Positions 35,072 through 52,805 of a stretch of 64,000 nucleotides of DNA are shown one piece after another. Position numbers and translations under genes: made by a program. The stretch lies in assembly GCA_028284225.1 (NCBI GenBank), contig JANQSD010000023.1:62001-126000 (forward strand), read 5' to 3'. Source of the DNA: Arenicellales bacterium (GTDB lineage: Bacteria; Pseudomonadota; Gammaproteobacteria; Arenicellales; JAHEKD01). Each line of letters starts with the position of its first letter. Positions within the stretch are counted from its first letter, which is position 1. Below the pieces are notes generated by a model, which was not told the origin of the DNA, searched no databases, and saw only the letters and a program-made list of their open reading frames with translations.

Positions 35072-36262
35072 ATGTTTGACTTAAACGATTTACCAGCAAA
35101 TTCAGGTGTGGTCATCTGCGGGCATGGAAGCAGAGCAAAGATTGCTGAAGAAGAATTTAGCCTTCTGGCTAAGGGCTTAATGGCACGTTATCCTAACTTA
35201 AACATAGAGTATGGGTTTTTAGAATACTCGGCGCCTAATATACATATGGCGCTTGATCGACTGATAGAAAAAGGTGTTAAGAATATTTTTGCAGTGCCGG
35301 GAATGTTATTTGCTGCCACGCATGCTAAAAATGACATCCCATCTGTATTGACTACCTATGAGGAGAAAAACCCGGGATTGACAGTGCATTATGGTGCCGA
35401 GCTAGGTTTGCATGAAAATATGATTAACGCGTTTCAGCAGCGCATCCTTGAGGCTATGGACTTGACTGAAATTCCCGAAGCAGGGGAGCTTTATGACACC
35501 ATGTTGGTAGTAGTGGGGCGTGGAACTTCAGTTGCAACTGCCAATGCTGAAGCGGCTAAGTTGACTCGTATCGTATCTGAAAACCTGGGGTTCGGTTGGT
35601 CAGAGACTGTATATTCCGGTGTGACCTATCCTTCAGTTGGCGCTGGTCTAGAAATGGCGGTAAAGCTTGGGTTTAAAAAAATAGTGGTTGCACCTTATTT
35701 TCTATTTTCCGGACGATTGATTGAGCGTATTTATGCTTATATTGATAAAGTGGCTAGTGAACACGCCAACGTTGTATTTTATAAAGCCAAATATTTGCGT
35801 GATCACGACGGTGTAATTGATACTTTTGTTTCACGTATTCAAGAAACGGTGAGTGGTGGTAATGATTCTGTAGGATTAATGGAAGATTTTCAGCGACGTT
35901 TGGCGGCGGGCGAGGTTGATGTGCATCACCATCACGCCGAATATCAACCCGAAGGGTCGGATGATCATCACCACCATCATGACCATTTGCACGACCACCA
36001 CCATCACTCTCATAGTCATGACCACAGCCATTCCCATAGCCATGACCATGCACATGATCACTCCCATGAACATTCACATCATCACCACGCACCTTATAAA
36101 CATATCGCCCACCCCTACGGTCCGAGAACAATGATTGATGAAAATGTCTGTTGTTGTTTTATGAGTCAGTTCCCAGATCACGTGGTTGAAGAGGAACGTC
36201 AGAAACGTAAGCAACAGGGGCTGATTGCTGATGGTGATCGAGTGCCTACTTGTCAGCGATAA
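35072..36262 (+). CDS. cbiX: Sirohydrochlorin cobaltochelatase with His-rich tail
   Basis: Inserts Co(2+) into sirohydrochlorin, the entry step of the early-cobalt B12 route. The product has 396 residues. Two CbiX halves (about 10-130 and 145-275) are present, the first with VVICGHGSRAK (His18) and FAATHAKNDIP, the metal-binding His pair. Residues about 285-339 form a striking His/Asp/Ser-rich stretch with over 30 His (bases about 35924-36088), then a CCC triplet (360-362) and a late Cys near the end. His-rich tails are known in long CbiX proteins and may store or deliver cobalt; clustered Cys may hold an Fe-S cluster or metal. It is convergent with cobM. Confidence 0.93.
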   Translation: MFDLNDLPANSGVVICGHGSRAKIAEEEFSLLAKGLMARYPNLNIEYGFLEYSAPNIHMALDRLIEKGVKNIFAVPGMLFAATHAKNDIPSVLTTYEEKNPGLTVHYGAELGLHENMINAFQQRILEAMDLTEIPEAGELYDTMLVVVGRGTSVATANAEAAKLTRIVSENLGFGWSETVYSGVTYPSVGAGLEMAVKLGFKKIVVAPYFLFSGRLIERIYAYIDKVASEHANVVFYKAKYLRDHDGVIDTFVSRIQETVSGGNDSVGLMEDFQRRLAAGEVDVHHHHAEYQPEGSDDHHHHHDHLHDHHHHSHSHDHSHSHSHDHAHDHSHEHSHHHHAPYKHIAHPYGPRTMIDENVCCCFMSQFPDHVVEEERQKRKQQGLIADGDRVPTCQR

Positions 36263-45174: not shown

Positions 45175-45594
45175 ATGCCTGAACACGCCATTTTATATAT
45201 TTGTTCAACCTGTCGCTATAGTGAGCAGGATAAAGAGCTTAATGGTATCACCGGTGGTGAATATCTTTATCGGCATATCACCGAGCTGGCGCCGGAAATC
45301 TTATCTGAAACCCGTTACCAGGGCGCTTATACGATCAAGCAGATCGCTTGTTTAATGGGTTGTGAGCGGCATTGTAATGTACACTTTCGGTCGCAGAATA
45401 AAATCAGTTATGTGGCGGGTAAATTCGAGCCAAATGCAGACAGTGCCAGAGCCATACTCGAGCATTTTGCCAAATACATGGATCAAGCAGATGGCCAGGT
45501 ACCCTTCCGGGAATGGCCGCAGGGCATGAAAGGTGGGCATTTTGTAGCTCGTATCCCTGCATTTACTGACGACTATCAATTACAGGATGAATAA
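45175..45594 (+). CDS. DUF1636 metal-binding protein
   Basis: 139-residue cytoplasmic protein of the DUF1636 family, often next to cobW and cobN. The cysteines are arranged as YICSTCRYSEQD (Cys10, Cys13) and ACLMGCERHCNVHF further on. This thioredoxin-like, ferredoxin-type pattern suggests an Fe-S cluster or a bound metal such as cobalt. The exact role is unknown; association with cobaltochelatase genes suggests cobalt supply or chelatase redox support. Its stop overlaps cobW at ATGAATAA. Confidence 0.85.
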   Translation: MPEHAILYICSTCRYSEQDKELNGITGGEYLYRHITELAPEILSETRYQGAYTIKQIACLMGCERHCNVHFRSQNKISYVAGKFEPNADSARAILEHFAKYMDQADGQVPFREWPQGMKGGHFVARIPAFTDDYQLQDE

Positions 45595-46672
45595 AATGGC
45601 TATGCAGTTTGATAAAATTCCAACTACAGTAATTACCGGCTTTTTAGGTAGTGGTAAAACTACATTGGTGCGCCATATCTTGGAAAACAATGAAGGCAGG
45701 CGAATCGCGGTTATTGTTAATGAATTCGGCGAAATGGGTGTTGACGGTGATATTATTGAACAATGCGCCATTGGTTGCGAAGACGAGAAAGCTGGGGAAA
45801 ATGTAATTGAATTGCCGAATGGCTGCTTATGCTGCACGGTGCAAGAAGAATTCTTCCCGGTAATGAAAGAGCTGGTTGATCGACGCGACCAAATAGATCA
45901 TATCCTGATCGAAACTTCCGGGTTAGCATTACCTAAGCCATTGGTAGAAGCTTTCAATTGGCCTGAGATTAAGTCTTCATGTACTGTCGATGCCGTGATT
46001 ACAGTTGTGGATGGCCCGGCAGCTGCTGAAGGCTTATTTGCGGCTCATCCGGAAAAAGTCGATGAAATGCGAAAAATGGATGAGAATCTGGACCACGAAT
46101 CACCGTTACATGAGTTGTTTGAGGATCAGTTGGCGGCAGCCGATCTAGTGCTATTGAATAAAACTGACCAAATGGACGATCAGCAAAAATCAACCGTCCA
46201 TGAGTTGCTGGACAAAGAATTACCCCAATCTGTCAAAGTCATCGAAACCCGTTTTGGCCATGCTGAGCTGGAGGTGTTGTTAGGTCAGCAAGCCGCAAGT
46301 GAAGACCACATTCACAAAGTTGTTGACCACCATAGTCAGCACCATGGCGAAGACGGTGAGCCTGATCACGATCATGATGACTTCGATTCAGTCAATATTG
46401 ATCTGGCCGACATTGATTTGGATAAGCTGTTGGCAGTCTTGTCTGATCTGGTCAATGAACACGAAATCTATCGAATTAAAGGTTTTCTGAGTATTCCCGG
46501 CAAGTCTATGCGCTGTGTGCTGCAGGGGGTTGGTCGACGTTTTGATCACTATTTTGATCGACCTTGGCAGGCCGATGAAACCCGTTTCAGCAAGTTGGTA
46601 TTTATCGGTCATGATCTTGACGAGGCAGCGTTAAAATCAGCATTGGACTCCTTGCTGCAGCAAGCTGCCTGA
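45587..46672 (+). CDS. cobW: CobW GTPase, cobalt metallochaperone
   Basis: G3E-family GTPase of 361 residues proposed to deliver cobalt to the CobN chelatase. The P-loop is GFLGSGKTT (18-26), the metal site GCLCC is at 79-83 (CxCC), and the guanine-specificity motif is LNKTD near 197. A His/Asp-rich segment (about 236-262, DHHSQHHGEDGEPDHDHDD) is typical of metal-handling CobW proteins. Starts at 45587 (overlapping the DUF1636 stop) or at 45596 are both possible. It lies 12 bases before cobN in one operon. Confidence 0.94.
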   Translation: MNKMAMQFDKIPTTVITGFLGSGKTTLVRHILENNEGRRIAVIVNEFGEMGVDGDIIEQCAIGCEDEKAGENVIELPNGCLCCTVQEEFFPVMKELVDRRDQIDHILIETSGLALPKPLVEAFNWPEIKSSCTVDAVITVVDGPAAAEGLFAAHPEKVDEMRKMDENLDHESPLHELFEDQLAAADLVLLNKTDQMDDQQKSTVHELLDKELPQSVKVIETRFGHAELEVLLGQQAASEDHIHKVVDHHSQHHGEDGEPDHDHDDFDSVNIDLADIDLDKLLAVLSDLVNEHEIYRIKGFLSIPGKSMRCVLQGVGRRFDHYFDRPWQADETRFSKLVFIGHDLDEAALKSALDSLLQQAA

Positions 46673-46684
46673 CGCTTATACTTC

Positions 46685-49600
46685 ATGCATTTACTAGTCG
46701 CCAAACCCGGTGGCTATAGCGATGAAACCGCTATTATTCAGCTTGGCCAATCGCCTGGTGATGTGGTTATTCTTTCAGCCGCTGATACGGATTTAGCTAT
46801 ACTTGCCGAAAAAGCTGAAATCTATGGCGACTATGCCCAAATTCGTTTGGCCAATCTCAGCCATCTGCGTAATCACGCTTCGATAGATTTATATATAGAA
46901 GAAGTTCTACAGCATGCCAAAGTGATTGTGGCCAGTTTGCTGGGCGGCTACAGTTATTGGCAATATTTGGTAGATCGATTAGTTACTGTTGCTCAATCAA
47001 AACACATCAAGCTTATTCTTCTATCGGGTACAGACCAATATGATCAGCAATTACAAAGCTATGGTAATCAAGCGGCTGAAATATGCCATGATCTGTGGAC
47101 GTACCAGCGCCAGGGCGGCCCTGATAACGCCAGCTCGTTTTTAGCTTACCTGCTTAATAAAGGCCTTGGAGTTGAGTTGCCTGAGAGCCTGGACTGGCAA
47201 CACCCTAAACCATTGCCAAAAACACTGTTATACCAAAACACAGTTGGAGCAACTGATTTTTTGAGTTTACAGTCCAGCTGGCAGCAAGGCAGACCTGTTG
47301 TAGCCATCTTATTTTACCGGGCCCATTATCAATCCGGTAATTTGCAAGTCATTGATGAACTCAGTGCAAGTTTGAATCAACGGAATATTGACGTTTTACC
47401 AATCGCTTTGACTTCGCTAAAAGATGATGAATGTTTGACAGTGGTCAATGATTTGTTAGTCAAGGCTGAAGTAAAGCTGATCATCAATACTACCAGCTTT
47501 GCTATGACCGACCCCGGTCAGGCCCCCGATGCTGATTGGTGTGCGTTTGCCGTTAACATCCCTGTTATCCAAACGGTGTTTTCCTCTTCCAATTGTGAAA
47601 GTTGGGAAGATGAGCTTACAGGATTATCACCACGTGACCTCGCTATGCATGTAGTATTACCGGAGCTGGATGGCCGTGTCATTAGTCGTACGATTTCATT
47701 CAAGGGAGAGTTAGGTTATTCTGAAACCACACAGACATCCATAAGCGGTTACCAACCACATCTCGAGCGCATACAGTGGGTGAGTGATTTTGCCAATAAC
47801 ACCCTTAAGCTTGAACAAAAGTCTAACCAGGAAAAAAACATTGCCCTGATTTTAGCCAATTATCCAACCAGGGAAGGACGTATCGGTAATGGCGTGGGTC
47901 TGGATACACCCGCTTCAGCAGTTAATATTTTACAAGCCATGGCTTGCCAAGGTTATCAGATCAATAATGTTCCAGCTGACGGTAATGCACTTATAGATAA
48001 GCTGCTTGAGGGTACCACCAATGACATAGATCTGTTGGGTATTCGTAAGCATGCCCAGTGGCTGGATGTGGCTGACTATGAGCAGTATTTTGCTGAATTG
48101 CATCCGGCACTTAAAAATCAATTGTTAGAACGCTGGGGTGAGCCACTGGATGATCCGATGGTGGTCGATGGTGCTTTTTGCATCGCAGGGTTTCGCTCAG
48201 GCAATATATTTATTGGCATTCAGCCGGCAAGGGGTTATCACATCGATTTGAATGCTAGTTATCATGATCCCGATTTGATTCCACCACATGCTTACCTGGC
48301 GTTTTATTTCTGGTTGCGTCATCAATTTAAAATGGATGCCATTATTCATGTGGGCAAGCATGGTAATTTGGAGTGGTTGCCCGGTAAAAGCCTGATGTTG
48401 TCGAATCAATGCTGGCCCGATGTCATCCTGGGTCCAGTCCCGCATTTTTATCCTTTTATTGTTAATGACCCGGGTGAGGGTGCTCAGGCAAAGCGGCGCA
48501 CTCAAGCGGTGATTATCGACCATTTGATGCCACCGCTCATGCGGGCGGAAACGTATGGCGAACTGGTGGAATTGGAGAAACTGGTAGATGAATATTATGA
48601 TGCGATCAGTTTGGATCCAGTACGTAGTACGCTATTAAAAAAACAAATCCTGGAAAAATGTCAACAGTACAACCTGTTAGAAGAAATTACCGCTATTAAA
48701 AAAACCGACAGTGAAGATTCGGATCAGTTATTAAACCAGTTAGATGCCTACTTATGTGAGTTAAAGGAATCTCAGATTCGCGATGGCCTGCATGTTTTTG
48801 GGCAATCCCCTGAGGCAGCGTCGCGAGCCTCAACGCTATTGGCCATTAGCCGATTACCGGTTGCTGATGGCAAGCAGGCAAATCAAAGCCTGATTAAAGC
48901 TTTGTCGCAGGATTTTGGTTTTGGCGTGGAATTTGATCCATTGACTTGCGACATGGCACAAAGCTGGTCGCATCGGCAACCTGAGCAGCTTGTTCAGTTG
49001 TTAAAAACCGCATGGCGTACTAACGGTGATACCCGGGAACGCCTGGAATTATTTGCTTTGTCGTTGTTAACTGACGAGACAAACACCGACCTGGAAAGTT
49101 TTGCACGAACAAGGCAAGTGTTGGATCGCGTCCGTCAACAGGTCGCTCCGGCACTTGATATATCAGGGCCTAATGAATTGAACAAACTGTTAGTCGGATT
49201 AGCCGGAAAGTTTGTTCCACCTGGTCCTAGCGGTGCGCCCAGCCGTGGACGGGTTGATGTGTTGCCAACCGGGCGTAATTTCTATTCAGTCGATGTGCGG
49301 GCGGTGCCAACACCAACGGCTTGGAGTATCGGTTTTAAATCTGCCACCCGCTTAATCGAGCGCTATGTTCAGGACCACGGTGAATTTCCAACCAGTATTG
49401 GAATTTCAGTGTGGGGGACAGCCACCATGCGTACCGGCGGCGATGATATTGCTCAGGCTCTGGCACTAATGGGTGTTAAACCTAAGTGGGCAACGGGTTC
49501 AAATCGTGTGCAGGATTTTGAAGTGCTGCCCCTCTCGGTGTTAAACCGTCCACGAGTAGATGTCACCTTGCGTGTGTCCGGCTTTTTCCGTGATGCCTTT

Positions 49601-50470
49601 TTAAATGTGATCAAATATTTTGATGCCGCTGTGCAAAAAGTCGCCGAGCAAGACGAAGATGAGTTAATGAATCCCATTCGTGCCCGGATCGTCAACGAAA
49701 CACAGCAATTAATCAGTCAGGGAATTCAAAATGATCAGGCACGAAAACAGGCCGGCTGGCGGGTGTTCGGGTCCAAGCCGGGTGCTTACGGAGCCGGCTT
49801 GCAAGGCTTAATCGACCAGCAAATTTGGGATGATCGCAGCGATCTGGCTGAGGCGTATACCAACTGGGGTGGTTATGCCTATGGCCAAAAAGATGAGGGC
49901 ACGGCATCACGCGATACTTTTGTTCGCCGTCTTAGCTCCATAGACGCGGTACAACAAAACCAGGATAACCGCGAGCACGACATTCTGGATTCTGATGATT
50001 ATTATCAATTCCAGGGCGGTATGACCAGCGCCGTTGAACACTATCGCAATGAGAAGATAGCCGTTTATCATGGTGATACCAGTCATCCTGAAAATCCACG
50101 CATTCGCAGTTTAAAAGAGGAAATTTCCAGAGTCATTCGTGCCCGGGTGGTTAATCCGAAATGGCTTGATAGCATTCAACGCCACGGATACAAAGGTGCA
50201 TTTGAGTTGGCGGCGACAGTGGATTACTTATTCGCCTATGACGCTACCACCAATGTGATTGAAGATTATCAATATCAAATGGTCGCAGAGGCATACTTGC
50301 TGGACGATGAAATACGGCAATTTTTATCTGACAACAACCCGGCGGCTTTAAGAGAAATGAGCGAACGCTTTCTTGAAGCCATGGATCGTGAATTATGGCA
50401 GCAACCGGGACAGATGCGCGCTAAAATCGAATCCATTATGATTGATGCCGAAAATACCTTGGAACAGTGA
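46685..50470 (+). CDS. cobN: Cobaltochelatase large subunit CobN
   Basis: Large catalytic subunit of the ATP-dependent aerobic cobaltochelatase, 1261 residues, as expected. It binds hydrogenobyrinic acid a,c-diamide and cobalt. CobN/BchH family blocks include IIHVGKHGNLEWLPGKSLML near residue 557, GRVDVLPTGRNFYSVD near 855, GISVWGTATMRTGGDDI near 905 and KPGAYGAGLQGLID near 1035. It requires AAA and VWA partner subunits, supplied by the frameshifting chlI/chlD gene immediately downstream. The CobN stop TGA overlaps the next gene's GTG start (GTGA). Confidence 0.96.
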   Translation: MHLLVAKPGGYSDETAIIQLGQSPGDVVILSAADTDLAILAEKAEIYGDYAQIRLANLSHLRNHASIDLYIEEVLQHAKVIVASLLGGYSYWQYLVDRLVTVAQSKHIKLILLSGTDQYDQQLQSYGNQAAEICHDLWTYQRQGGPDNASSFLAYLLNKGLGVELPESLDWQHPKPLPKTLLYQNTVGATDFLSLQSSWQQGRPVVAILFYRAHYQSGNLQVIDELSASLNQRNIDVLPIALTSLKDDECLTVVNDLLVKAEVKLIINTTSFAMTDPGQAPDADWCAFAVNIPVIQTVFSSSNCESWEDELTGLSPRDLAMHVVLPELDGRVISRTISFKGELGYSETTQTSISGYQPHLERIQWVSDFANNTLKLEQKSNQEKNIALILANYPTREGRIGNGVGLDTPASAVNILQAMACQGYQINNVPADGNALIDKLLEGTTNDIDLLGIRKHAQWLDVADYEQYFAELHPALKNQLLERWGEPLDDPMVVDGAFCIAGFRSGNIFIGIQPARGYHIDLNASYHDPDLIPPHAYLAFYFWLRHQFKMDAIIHVGKHGNLEWLPGKSLMLSNQCWPDVILGPVPHFYPFIVNDPGEGAQAKRRTQAVIIDHLMPPLMRAETYGELVELEKLVDEYYDAISLDPVRSTLLKKQILEKCQQYNLLEEITAIKKTDSEDSDQLLNQLDAYLCELKESQIRDGLHVFGQSPEAASRASTLLAISRLPVADGKQANQSLIKALSQDFGFGVEFDPLTCDMAQSWSHRQPEQLVQLLKTAWRTNGDTRERLELFALSLLTDETNTDLESFARTRQVLDRVRQQVAPALDISGPNELNKLLVGLAGKFVPPGPSGAPSRGRVDVLPTGRNFYSVDVRAVPTPTAWSIGFKSATRLIERYVQDHGEFPTSIGISVWGTATMRTGGDDIAQALALMGVKPKWATGSNRVQDFEVLPLSVLNRPRVDVTLRVSGFFRDAFLNVIKYFDAAVQKVAEQDEDELMNPIRARIVNETQQLISQGIQNDQARKQAGWRVFGSKPGAYGAGLQGLIDQQIWDDRSDLAEAYTNWGGYAYGQKDEGTASRDTFVRRLSSIDAVQQNQDNREHDILDSDDYYQFQGGMTSAVEHYRNEKIAVYHGDTSHPENPRIRSLKEEISRVIRARVVNPKWLDSIQRHGYKGAFELAATVDYLFAYDATTNVIEDYQYQMVAEAYLLDDEIRQFLSDNNPAALREMSERFLEAMDRELWQQPGQMRAKIESIMIDAENTLEQ

Positions 50471-51459
50471 CCATGAAAGTCGATTATCCTTTTTCTGCCG
50501 TGGTGGGCAATGACGAACTGAAACGAGCGCTAAGCTTGTGCATGATCGATCCAAGTCTTGGTGGTGTTGTGGTAGAGGGTGATCGTGGTAGTGCCAAGTC
50601 TACCTTGGCTCGCGGATTAGCCCAGTTGATGAATAGCGGTCAGTTTGTGAATTTGCCTTTAGGCGCTTCTGAGGAACAATTAATAGGCTCGCTGGACATA
50701 AGTGAAGTTCTGTCTAATAACGAAGTTAAATTCAAGCCCGGTCTGCTGGCCAAAGCCCATCAGGGTGTGCTTTATATTGATGAAGTGAACTTGCTTGCAG
50801 ATCACTTAACAGATGTTTTATTGGATGTAGCGGCCAGCGGTATTAATATTGTAGAGCGTGATGGCATTTCGCATCAACATGAGGCCAGGTTTGTCTTGGT
50901 CGGCAGTATGAATCCTGATGAAGGTGTGTTACGCCCCCAATTACTTGATCGATTTGGGTTTTGTGTATTGAGTGAAACACCAACTGCGTTTGATGCCCGC
51001 AAGGAAGTAGTCGCTCGTCGCCTTGCGTTCGAATCGGATCCAACGGCTTTCGTCAGTAGTTATGAGACGGAGCAAGCAAACTTGTCTGGGCAACTACAAG
51101 CGGCAAGTGTTGATCTTGCAAGTATTGTTGTCCCCGAACAAATCAGTAATGCCATTGCAGAGCTATGCTCGTCCTCCGGCTGTGAAGGTTTACGGGCCGA
51201 CATCACACTCTACAAAGCGGTCAGAGCCAATGCAGCACTTGAGGGCAGAACTGAGGTAGGCACTGAGGATATAAACCAAGTTAAAGAGCTTGTATTAAGG
51301 CATAGACGCAAGCCCATACAAGACAGTGCACCTCCCAAGCGTCGGCCAAACAATCCAACACCACAACAGCAAGTTGATTCATCAAGTAACCAAAATGAAC
51401 GACATCAACATGCTGAAGTCGAGTATCTGGATCAGGCCCTTAAAGAAAAAAAGTCCTGA
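50467..51459 (+). CDS. chlD: Chelatase AAA+ subunit (ChlI-like), 0-frame product of chlD
   Basis: AAA+ ATPase of 330 residues resembling magnesium chelatase subunit I/D, here the motor for CobN. Walker A is GDRGSAKST (38-46), Walker B VLYIDEVNLL near 99-108, and sensor region VGSMNPDEGVLRPQLLDRFG near 140-159. After about 285 comes a Pro/Gln/Asn-rich linker (PPKRRPNNPTPQQQ). Such a linker normally joins the AAA and VWA parts of ChlD, yet here the frame stops at TGA 51457. The stop follows a slippery A_AAA_AAG, so this is probably the short product of a gene that also makes a full ChlD by -1 frameshifting. Start at GTG 50467 or ATG 50473. Confidence 0.93.
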   Translation: MTMKVDYPFSAVVGNDELKRALSLCMIDPSLGGVVVEGDRGSAKSTLARGLAQLMNSGQFVNLPLGASEEQLIGSLDISEVLSNNEVKFKPGLLAKAHQGVLYIDEVNLLADHLTDVLLDVAASGINIVERDGISHQHEARFVLVGSMNPDEGVLRPQLLDRFGFCVLSETPTAFDARKEVVARRLAFESDPTAFVSSYETEQANLSGQLQAASVDLASIVVPEQISNAIAELCSSSGCEGLRADITLYKAVRANAALEGRTEVGTEDINQVKELVLRHRRKPIQDSAPPKRRPNNPTPQQQVDSSSNQNERHQHAEVEYLDQALKEKKS

Positions 51460-51484
51460 ACCGTCGCGCCGGTCTGCGCGGCGG
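51447..51484 (+). promoter_or_regulatory. Probable -1 programmed ribosomal frameshift site in chlD
   Basis: Slippery heptamer A_AAA_AAG at 51447-51453, in the correct phase with the AAA-subunit frame, followed by a 7-base spacer. Next comes a GC-rich stem CCGTCGCG (51461-51468) / CGCGGCGG (51477-51484), 8 pairs with one G-U, and an 8-base loop. Slipping back one base moves ribosomes past TGA 51457 into the VWA frame. A possible upstream Shine-Dalgarno-like stimulator is only weak (GGATCAGG at 51429-51436). Confidence 0.85.
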
Positions 51485-52139
51485 CAATCAAGCAAAACAC
51501 AAAAATGATATAGCAATCAGTCAACATCTGGGTATTGCCGGTAAAGGCAAGACCAAAACATCCAACACCATCAGTTGGTTGCAAACCTTAATTCAAAACC
51601 AGGGCAGGCCACGAGAACCGGCTGATTTGGTTTACCGGCGTTTGGTCAATCAAGTGCCGACTAATACGGTAATTGTTTGGGATACTTCCGCCAGCACCTT
51701 ACGTAATCAGGCTGCATCCACAGCTAAAGGGATTGTTTTGGCCTTACTCGAGCAAGCTTACACAAGACGTGAACGCATAGGATTATTGGAATTCTCAGCT
51801 GATGAAGTGAGGGTAGTCACGCCTTGCCAACGGGTTAACCGCGAGTTCATCACACCAACCATCACTAAATTGGCAATCGGTGGTAACACACCTATTGATC
51901 GTGCCATTATCGAAGCCGGTACTATGCTCAAGTTAGCACAAAATAATCAGCCGCATGCACTGTCCAAACTGATTCTGATTACAGACGGTTGTTTCAAGAC
52001 CTTACCAGCTAAACCCGAATTTGATGCTGCAATAACTATTATGGATATAGATCGAGGCGCAGTGAAAATCGGGCAATGTGAGAAATTGGCCCAACTGTGG
52101 GCAGCTGAGTTAATCCACATGTATGAATTGCAAAAGTAA
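51453..52139 (+). CDS. chlD: VWA half of ChlD, read after -1 frameshift
   Basis: The -1 frame after the slippery site encodes 228 residues ending at TAA 52137-52139. It starts VLNRRAGLRGGNQAKHKND and continues into a von Willebrand A domain. The metal-ion-dependent adhesion site is complete: DTSAS (Asp at 51681), GGNTPID and ITDGC. The stretch has no plausible independent start before TTG 51579, and that start would cut the linker, so translation as a separate protein is unlikely. Fused with 329 residues of the AAA part it gives a ChlD of about 557 residues, the normal size for a chelatase D subunit. Partner of CobN. Confidence 0.88.
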   Translation, partial: VLNRRAGLRGGNQAKHKNDIAISQHLGIAGKGKTKTSNTISWLQTLIQNQGRPREPADLVYRRLVNQVPTNTVIVWDTSASTLRNQAASTAKGIVLALLEQAYTRRERIGLLEFSADEVRVVTPCQRVNREFITPTITKLAIGGNTPIDRAIIEAGTMLKLAQNNQPHALSKLILITDGCFKTLPAKPEFDAAITIMDIDRGAVKIGQCEKLAQLWAAELIHMYELQK

Positions 52140-52199
52140 CTTTAAAAAGTTAGTGGGTGCTTATACAATCGTTTTTCAATCGTATCCAAGAGTTTAATC

Positions 52200-52805
52200 A
52201 TGTCCATTACCGATCAGGAAAAACACAAGCGTGCAGCGGAAAAACGTAACGCCGGTTATGAGAAAAAACAGGCGCAAGCAACCAAAGAAAAAGGGTTGTT
52301 TATTATTAACACTGGTACAGGCAAAGGTAAAACCTCCGCCGCTATGGGAATGGTTATACGCGCTGTCGGCCATGGCATGAAAGTCGGGGTAGTGCAATTC
52401 ATCAAAGGGGCCAAAGAAACGGCCGAGCGCAATGTCTTAAGTGGTTTCGATAATGTAGAGTTTCATTCTATTGGTGATGGCTTTACCTGGATTACGCAAA
52501 ATCGGGAACAGGATATCGCCACGGCTGAAAAAGCCTGGCACATTGCCAAACAGATGATTGAAAATCCTGACTATGACATGGTCTTGCTGGATGAGCTCAA
52601 TATTATTCTAAAATACGATTATTTGAATACCGATGAAGTATTGGCGGTCATTAACGATCGCCCCGAAATGATGCACGTTATTGTCACCGGTCGTCATGCT
52701 AAAGATAACTTAATTGAAGCCGCTGATTTGGTCAGTGAAATTCGTCCGATCAAACATCCCTATAAAGAACAAGGTGTTAAAGCCCAGAAGGGTATCGAAT
52801 TTTAA
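52200..52805 (+). CDS. cobO: Cob(I)alamin adenosyltransferase
   Basis: CobO/BtuR-type ATP:corrinoid adenosyltransferase of 201 residues, which adds the 5'-deoxyadenosyl group to reduced corrinoids. The basic N-terminus (HKRAAEKRNAGYEKKQAQA) is followed by an inverted P-loop IINTGTGKGKTSAAMGM (residues about 34-50), VGVVQFIKGAKETAE and MVLLDELNIILKYDYL near 127-142. Its last base overlaps the start of cobC, so the two are coupled. Confidence 0.96.
   Translation: MSITDQEKHKRAAEKRNAGYEKKQAQATKEKGLFIINTGTGKGKTSAAMGMVIRAVGHGMKVGVVQFIKGAKETAERNVLSGFDNVEFHSIGDGFTWITQNREQDIATAEKAWHIAKQMIENPDYDMVLLDELNIILKYDYLNTDEVLAVINDRPEMMHVIVTGRHAKDNLIEAADLVSEIRPIKHPYKEQGVKAQKGIEF

Follow-up and report, generated by a model that had tools for sequence, protein, structure and literature searches.

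In an Arenicellales bacterium, an ORF for an AAA+ protein begins two bases after the end of cobN, with its ATG at position 50473, and stops just before a VWA domain that is encoded in the -1 frame. This arrangement raises the question of whether the two frames are one chlD gene that supplies two proteins. We analyzed the 64,000-nucleotide stretch of contig JANQSD010000023.1 that contains the locus (hereafter the window, to which positions refer unless stated otherwise). Our answer, which we hold with a probability of about 0.87, is that the gene is a frameshifted chlD (fs-chlD), in which a programmed -1 shift would give both subunits of the AAA+ motor of CobN. Coordinates of the relevant features are collected in Table 1.

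Table 1. Features of the chlD locus and its neighbors (window positions)
Feature	Position	Strand	Basis
cobW	45587..46672	+	TIGR02475 over cut-off
cobN, cobaltochelatase large subunit	46685..50470	+	TIGR02257, 1602 bits vs cut-off 822
Zero-frame AAA+ ORF, ChlI-like small subunit with lid domain	50473..51459	+	ORF, Pfam, TIGR and PDB matches
Weak Shine-Dalgarno-like AGG, possible stimulator, 10 nt 5' of heptamer	51434..51436	+	Sequence
TAA in -1 frame, upstream bound for a useful -1 shift	51441..51443	+	Sequence
Slippery heptamer A_AAA_AAG, in phase	51447..51453	+	Sequence; A_AAA_AAR in 36/36 out-of-frame loci
-1 frame, basic linker and VWA domain, 228 aa + stop	51453..52139	+	Pfam, motif conservation
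Zero-frame stop TGA, end of short product	51457..51459	+	Sequence; one codon after heptamer
Stem-loop, 9 bp, 7 nt past heptamer	51461..51484	+	RNA folding, synonymous recoding control
cobO/cobA, corrinoid adenosyltransferase	52200..52805	+	NF004637 over cut-off

Frameshifting in chlD genes of cobalt chelatases, which the original prediction gave as known, is indeed on record. It was predicted and tested in 2013 (Antonov et al. NAR, PMC3711429), in a cluster of 23 genes with -1 shifts from Pseudomonas, Burkholderia, Delftia, Herpetosiphon, Methanocaldococcus and Methanococcus. In Escherichia coli reporters, frameshifting of 63, 40 and 10% was obtained with 11, 9 and 7 A's, respectively (PMC3711429); the last value, about 10%, comes from a 7-A cassette related to that of the window. 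According to the citation of Antonov 2020 (MBE) in PMC9227772, the chlD frameshift is linked to production of both Co-chelatase subunits, and an evolutionary scheme for fs-chlD was presented by Kuznetsov et al. 2022 (PMC9227772).

The zero-frame ORF encodes 328 amino acids from ATG 50473, or 330 from an alternative GTG at 50467. Pfam domains AAA_5 and AAA_lid_2 (the latter at residues 227-287) were identified in it, and its Walker A and B motifs, sensors and arginine finger are all intact. The short product thus contains the whole AAA core and the lid, with the size and fold of ChlI/BchI, and matches the BchI structure 1g8p with an E-value of 8e-77. Matches to TIGR02442 and TIGR02030 were partial. 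Against the BchI-ChlI equivalog TIGR02030 the AAA half scored 325.7 bits, below the curated cut-off of 466.95. It was nearer to the putative cobaltochelatase family TIGR02442, with a score of 380.2 bits when the AAA half is taken by itself (the cut-off of 779.45 applies to the whole protein).

The -1 frame had been predicted to encode exactly the missing VWA domain with a complete metal site and no good start of its own, and both parts of this prediction hold. The domain matches Pfam VWA_2 (E-value 1.9e-10) and carries a complete MIDAS (DTSAS, GGNTP and ITDG), while no PDB entry was matched by this half at the sequence level. A scan of the VWA frame revealed no ATG, GTG or TTG before TTG 51579, which lies 120 nt beyond the zero-frame stop and is not preceded by a visible ribosome-binding site. 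The predicted shifted product is a ChlD-like protein of 555 amino acids (557 from GTG 50467).

The AAA frame ends with codons CTT AAA GAA AAA AAG TCC TGA. Direct reading of the sequence confirmed that the A_AAA_AAG heptamer is in phase, that the TGA at 51457 stands one codon after it and that the spacer before the stem is 7 nt long (51454-51460), all as originally described. The VWA frame is open from 51444 (locus position 2472), and the two frames overlap by 13 nt (51444-51456). Since the -1 frame is closed upstream by a TAA, a productive shift is confined to these 13 nt, which hold the heptamer. Twelve ORFs of the window, with 4634 codon positions in total, contain an in-phase A_AAA_AAR four times: three times as A_AAA_AAA, and as A_AAA_AAG at the chlD junction only. 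The duplex of the upstream AGG with the anti-Shine-Dalgarno sequence was calculated at merely -3.5 kcal/mol (-1.5 to -8.4 in relatives), and several relatives have a clearer Shine-Dalgarno-like element.

The stem downstream of the heptamer was located where predicted; its length proved to be nine pairs, one of them U-G, rather than eight. The arms are 51461-51469 and 51476-51484, with the loop CGGTCT at 51470-51475. RNA folding of 51454-51500 gave -18.7 kcal/mol (z -2.5). As a control, 5000 synonymous recodings were made that kept the -1 peptide and used codons at their local frequencies. Equally good folding was seen in 2.2% of them, and a stem of at least nine pairs starting at the right distance in 5.2%. 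Third-position GC is 0.78 in the stem versus about 0.42 around it. The stem is probably under selection, but as it is only moderately better than the recodings, it is suggestive rather than decisive when taken alone. Strong folding past the heptamer is likewise seen in many relatives, with a median of -28 kcal/mol over 60 nt and a median z of -1.4 against mononucleotide shuffles; the structures differ.

Relatives of the AAA half were collected from genome contigs, from the order, from the class and from the phylum, and those followed by a VWA half were counted. This gave 36 out-of-frame loci (the window locus and 35 others, which are about 49-55% identical to the window chlD in the AAA part) and 31 relatives that are single in-frame AAA-VWA ORFs. 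One more locus, L034, has an ambiguous frame within VWA and was grouped with the fused copies solely for the tree. The VWA offset is -1 in all 36 out-of-frame loci and +1 in none. Conservation of the heptamer in related genomes, proposed as a check with the prediction, was found throughout: an in-phase A_AAA_AAR (A_AAA_AAG or A_AAA_AAA) precedes the AAA stop by 0-1 codons in 36/36. The typical junction, AAA AAG CCC TGA, is found in Pseudomonas, Stutzerimonas, Ectothiorhodospira and many genomes of the class, and the out-of-frame set includes isolates and single-contig genomes. In 30 of the 36 loci the VWA frame has no ATG or GTG within 60 nt of the stop; in the remaining six a GTG lies close to the junction. 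The residues of Walker A, Walker B, the sensors, the arginine finger and the MIDAS hardly vary, in frameshifted and fused groups alike. Since 31 orthologues encode it in a single frame, the joined protein occurs naturally.

The window gene is isolated in this set. Among the relatives found, the closest in the AAA part has about 56% identity, and no chlD copy was found in one genome of the same genus (75% complete). In the AAA tree the window chlD is a lone long branch without a resolved position. An independent origin of its frameshift was considered and not adopted, as a single clade of frameshifted copies was not rejected (p-AU 0.287). Among fused relatives, L099 reads CCT AAA AAA AGT CTG AGA, which minus one A becomes the usual junction AAA AAA GTC TGA; it looks as if a frameshift gene had turned into a fusion through the gain of one A. 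Moritella-type fused genes (L011, L013 and L017) have nine A's in a row (A9) in the linker, close to stops in other frames, possibly a reversed, dnaX-like signal. We dropped such reversed polarity (the long product in frame, the short one by a -1 shift) as a general rule for fused relatives because, although A runs with nearby stops are present in Moritella (A9), L099 and L103, most fused relatives have none.

The cobN-chlD pair is flanked by cobW and cobO, and the region contains a near-complete corrin pathway (CobI, CobJ-CbiG, CobM, CbiET, CobH, CobA, CbiD, CobK and CobB). Two further genes of the region were noted. A CbiX/CfbA-like chelatase with a His-rich tail, scoring under its family cut-off, is encoded at 35072-36262; with it, cbiD, cbiG and CobN, genes of the early- and the late-cobalt pathways are mixed. 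A DUF1636 gene (45175-45594) lies between cobQ and cobW.

Of the 109 genomes covered in the order, 11 have CobN over the cut-off, and chlD was found in 10 of these, compared to one of the 98 without (Fisher p 3e-12, uncorrected for relatedness). Searches of the genome with P0001 and PF01078 did not find a separate chlI: the AAA half matched itself and, weakly, a YifB/ComM-type protein only. The adjacency to cobN, the co-occurrence with CobN and the failure of these searches to find a chlI make the predicted role of the chlD products as CobN partners well supported, albeit not proven.

The frame state of chlD appears to follow gene order. The gene stands directly after cobN in 29 of the 36 frameshifted copies and in one of the 31 fused copies, which are mostly found before cobO or cobB. 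The window locus, cobN-chlD(fs)-cobO (46685-52805), has both neighbors. It may be that chlD is frameshifted where it follows cobN and fused where it has moved before cobO or cobB, with the window locus as a bridge, but we regard this as unlikely rather than likely. A phylogenetic test yielded 1-5 independent pairs, too few, so the pattern may reflect shared ancestry. If it is causal, frameshifting would be tied to synthesis together with CobN, and in fused lineages CobN would operate with no separate small subunit.

Several other explanations of the broken frame were weighed. A run of seven A's is a classic site of indel errors, and with 31 relatives fused in frame, L099 among them resembling the same junction with one extra A, it could be argued that a single A was lost in sequencing or assembly from a plain in-frame fusion. 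An error is, however, not expected to fall exactly on A_AAA_AAG with a stem after it. Because the -1 offset and the heptamer next to an AAA stop are shared by 36/36 loci, isolates and single-contig genomes included, error is strongly disfavored, to the point of being extremely improbable, and programmed -1 frameshifting is favored. Alternatively, RNA polymerase could add an A, and a mixed mRNA pool would then yield both proteins. The run is A-rich, and slippage on A9 does produce both dnaX products in Thermus (PMC3711429). The window run has only seven A's, though, and several relatives have six (e.g. L019, ACA AAA AAG). It is the in-phase ribosomal heptamer, not a long A run, that is conserved, and slippage does not need a downstream stem. 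Given that the length of the run is not conserved, we consider transcriptional slippage very improbable. That the AAA and VWA frames are adjacent and overlap, with a GTG near the junction in a few of the loci, would also fit two genes, in which case no fusion would be made and the VWA protein would have its own start or arise by termination-reinitiation. Such an arrangement is hardly credible here, since the VWA frame has no candidate start before TTG 51579 and reinitiation alone would not preserve the A_AAA_AAR heptamer.

A different possibility is that the frameshift is real and its products do not serve CobN. The same genome carries on contig C14 (L065 7681-10323) a CobS-like gene (530 bits, cut-off 558.6) beside a CobT-like gene. 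CobN could therefore have another motor, and the statement that the genome holds no other small subunit is not strictly true. Yet the CobS-like gene, present in 38 of the 109 genomes, occurs without CobN in 30 of these 38 and is missing from three of the 11 CobN genomes, whereas chlD tracks CobN. The AAA+/VWA pair adjoins purine-catabolism-like genes (nucleoside transport, adenosine deaminase and guanine deaminase, as named from their unprofiled translations), not B12 genes. The link of cobS/cobT to CobN that marks a canonical CobST motor was not found in the order. On these distributions the pair is unlikely to be a dedicated partner of CobN, and its being the cobaltochelatase motor in place of the chlD products is quite improbable.

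From the signal and its genomic context we infer programmed frameshifting in this organism, its efficiency and the assembly of the products with CobN. Translation would begin at ATG 50473, probably in coupling with that of cobN, and most ribosomes would read to TGA 51457, yielding a 328-aa ChlI/CobS-like AAA+ subunit. A fraction would slip back by one base on A_AAA_AAG, aided by the downstream stem and perhaps by the weak upstream AGG, to make the 555-aa ChlD-like subunit composed of AAA+, linker and VWA parts. Short and long products together would form the AAA+ motor for cobalt insertion by CobN.

The window chlD is a new example of fs-chlD in an isolated lineage, the principle being already known. 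It shares with the described cases (PMC3711429, PMC9227772) the passage from the AAA+ half to the VWA half through the -1 frame, an A-rich slippery site followed by structured RNA, and a genome with cobN. The described cases have no separate chlI; none was found in this genome either, but it does carry the CobS-like gene on contig C14. It differs in its distance from relatives, in being flanked by both cobN and cobO and in the presence of the CobST-like pair in the genome. The E. coli dnaX gene has the same A_AAA_AAG, a downstream hairpin and an upstream Shine-Dalgarno-like element, and it, too, encodes two subunits of a single AAA+ complex. In dnaX, however, the shift produces the short product, while in the window chlD it would produce the long one, and the upstream element is weak in the latter. 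In-frame chlD fusions whose cobN lies at another site (Oceanospirillaceae, Moritella, Vibrio and genomes of the same order) encode the same AAA-linker-VWA protein, but their frame is unbroken and they hardly ever stand straight after cobN. The BchI/BchD magnesium chelatase and CobS/CobT also combine an AAA+ protein with an AAA-VWA (or VWA) protein as the motor of a large metal-inserting subunit; they are encoded by two separate genes, compared to one in the window.

The comparative set is large and uniform, every frame-broken gene having the heptamer. In routine annotation, a gene of this kind would appear as a chlI-like gene plus an orphan VWA fragment, or as a pseudogene. The set also sharpens the question of how the small subunit is supplied, or whether it is dispensable, in fused relatives without chlI. 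In fused relatives from the order a single chlD match and no separate chlI were found, so some CobN proteins may do without two separate products; in two draft genomes of the order, G005 and G015 (L024 and L025), which have fused chlD and CobN, neither chlI nor a CobS-like gene was found. An isolated lineage can probably be added to those in which a single gene encodes both motor subunits of cobaltochelatase.
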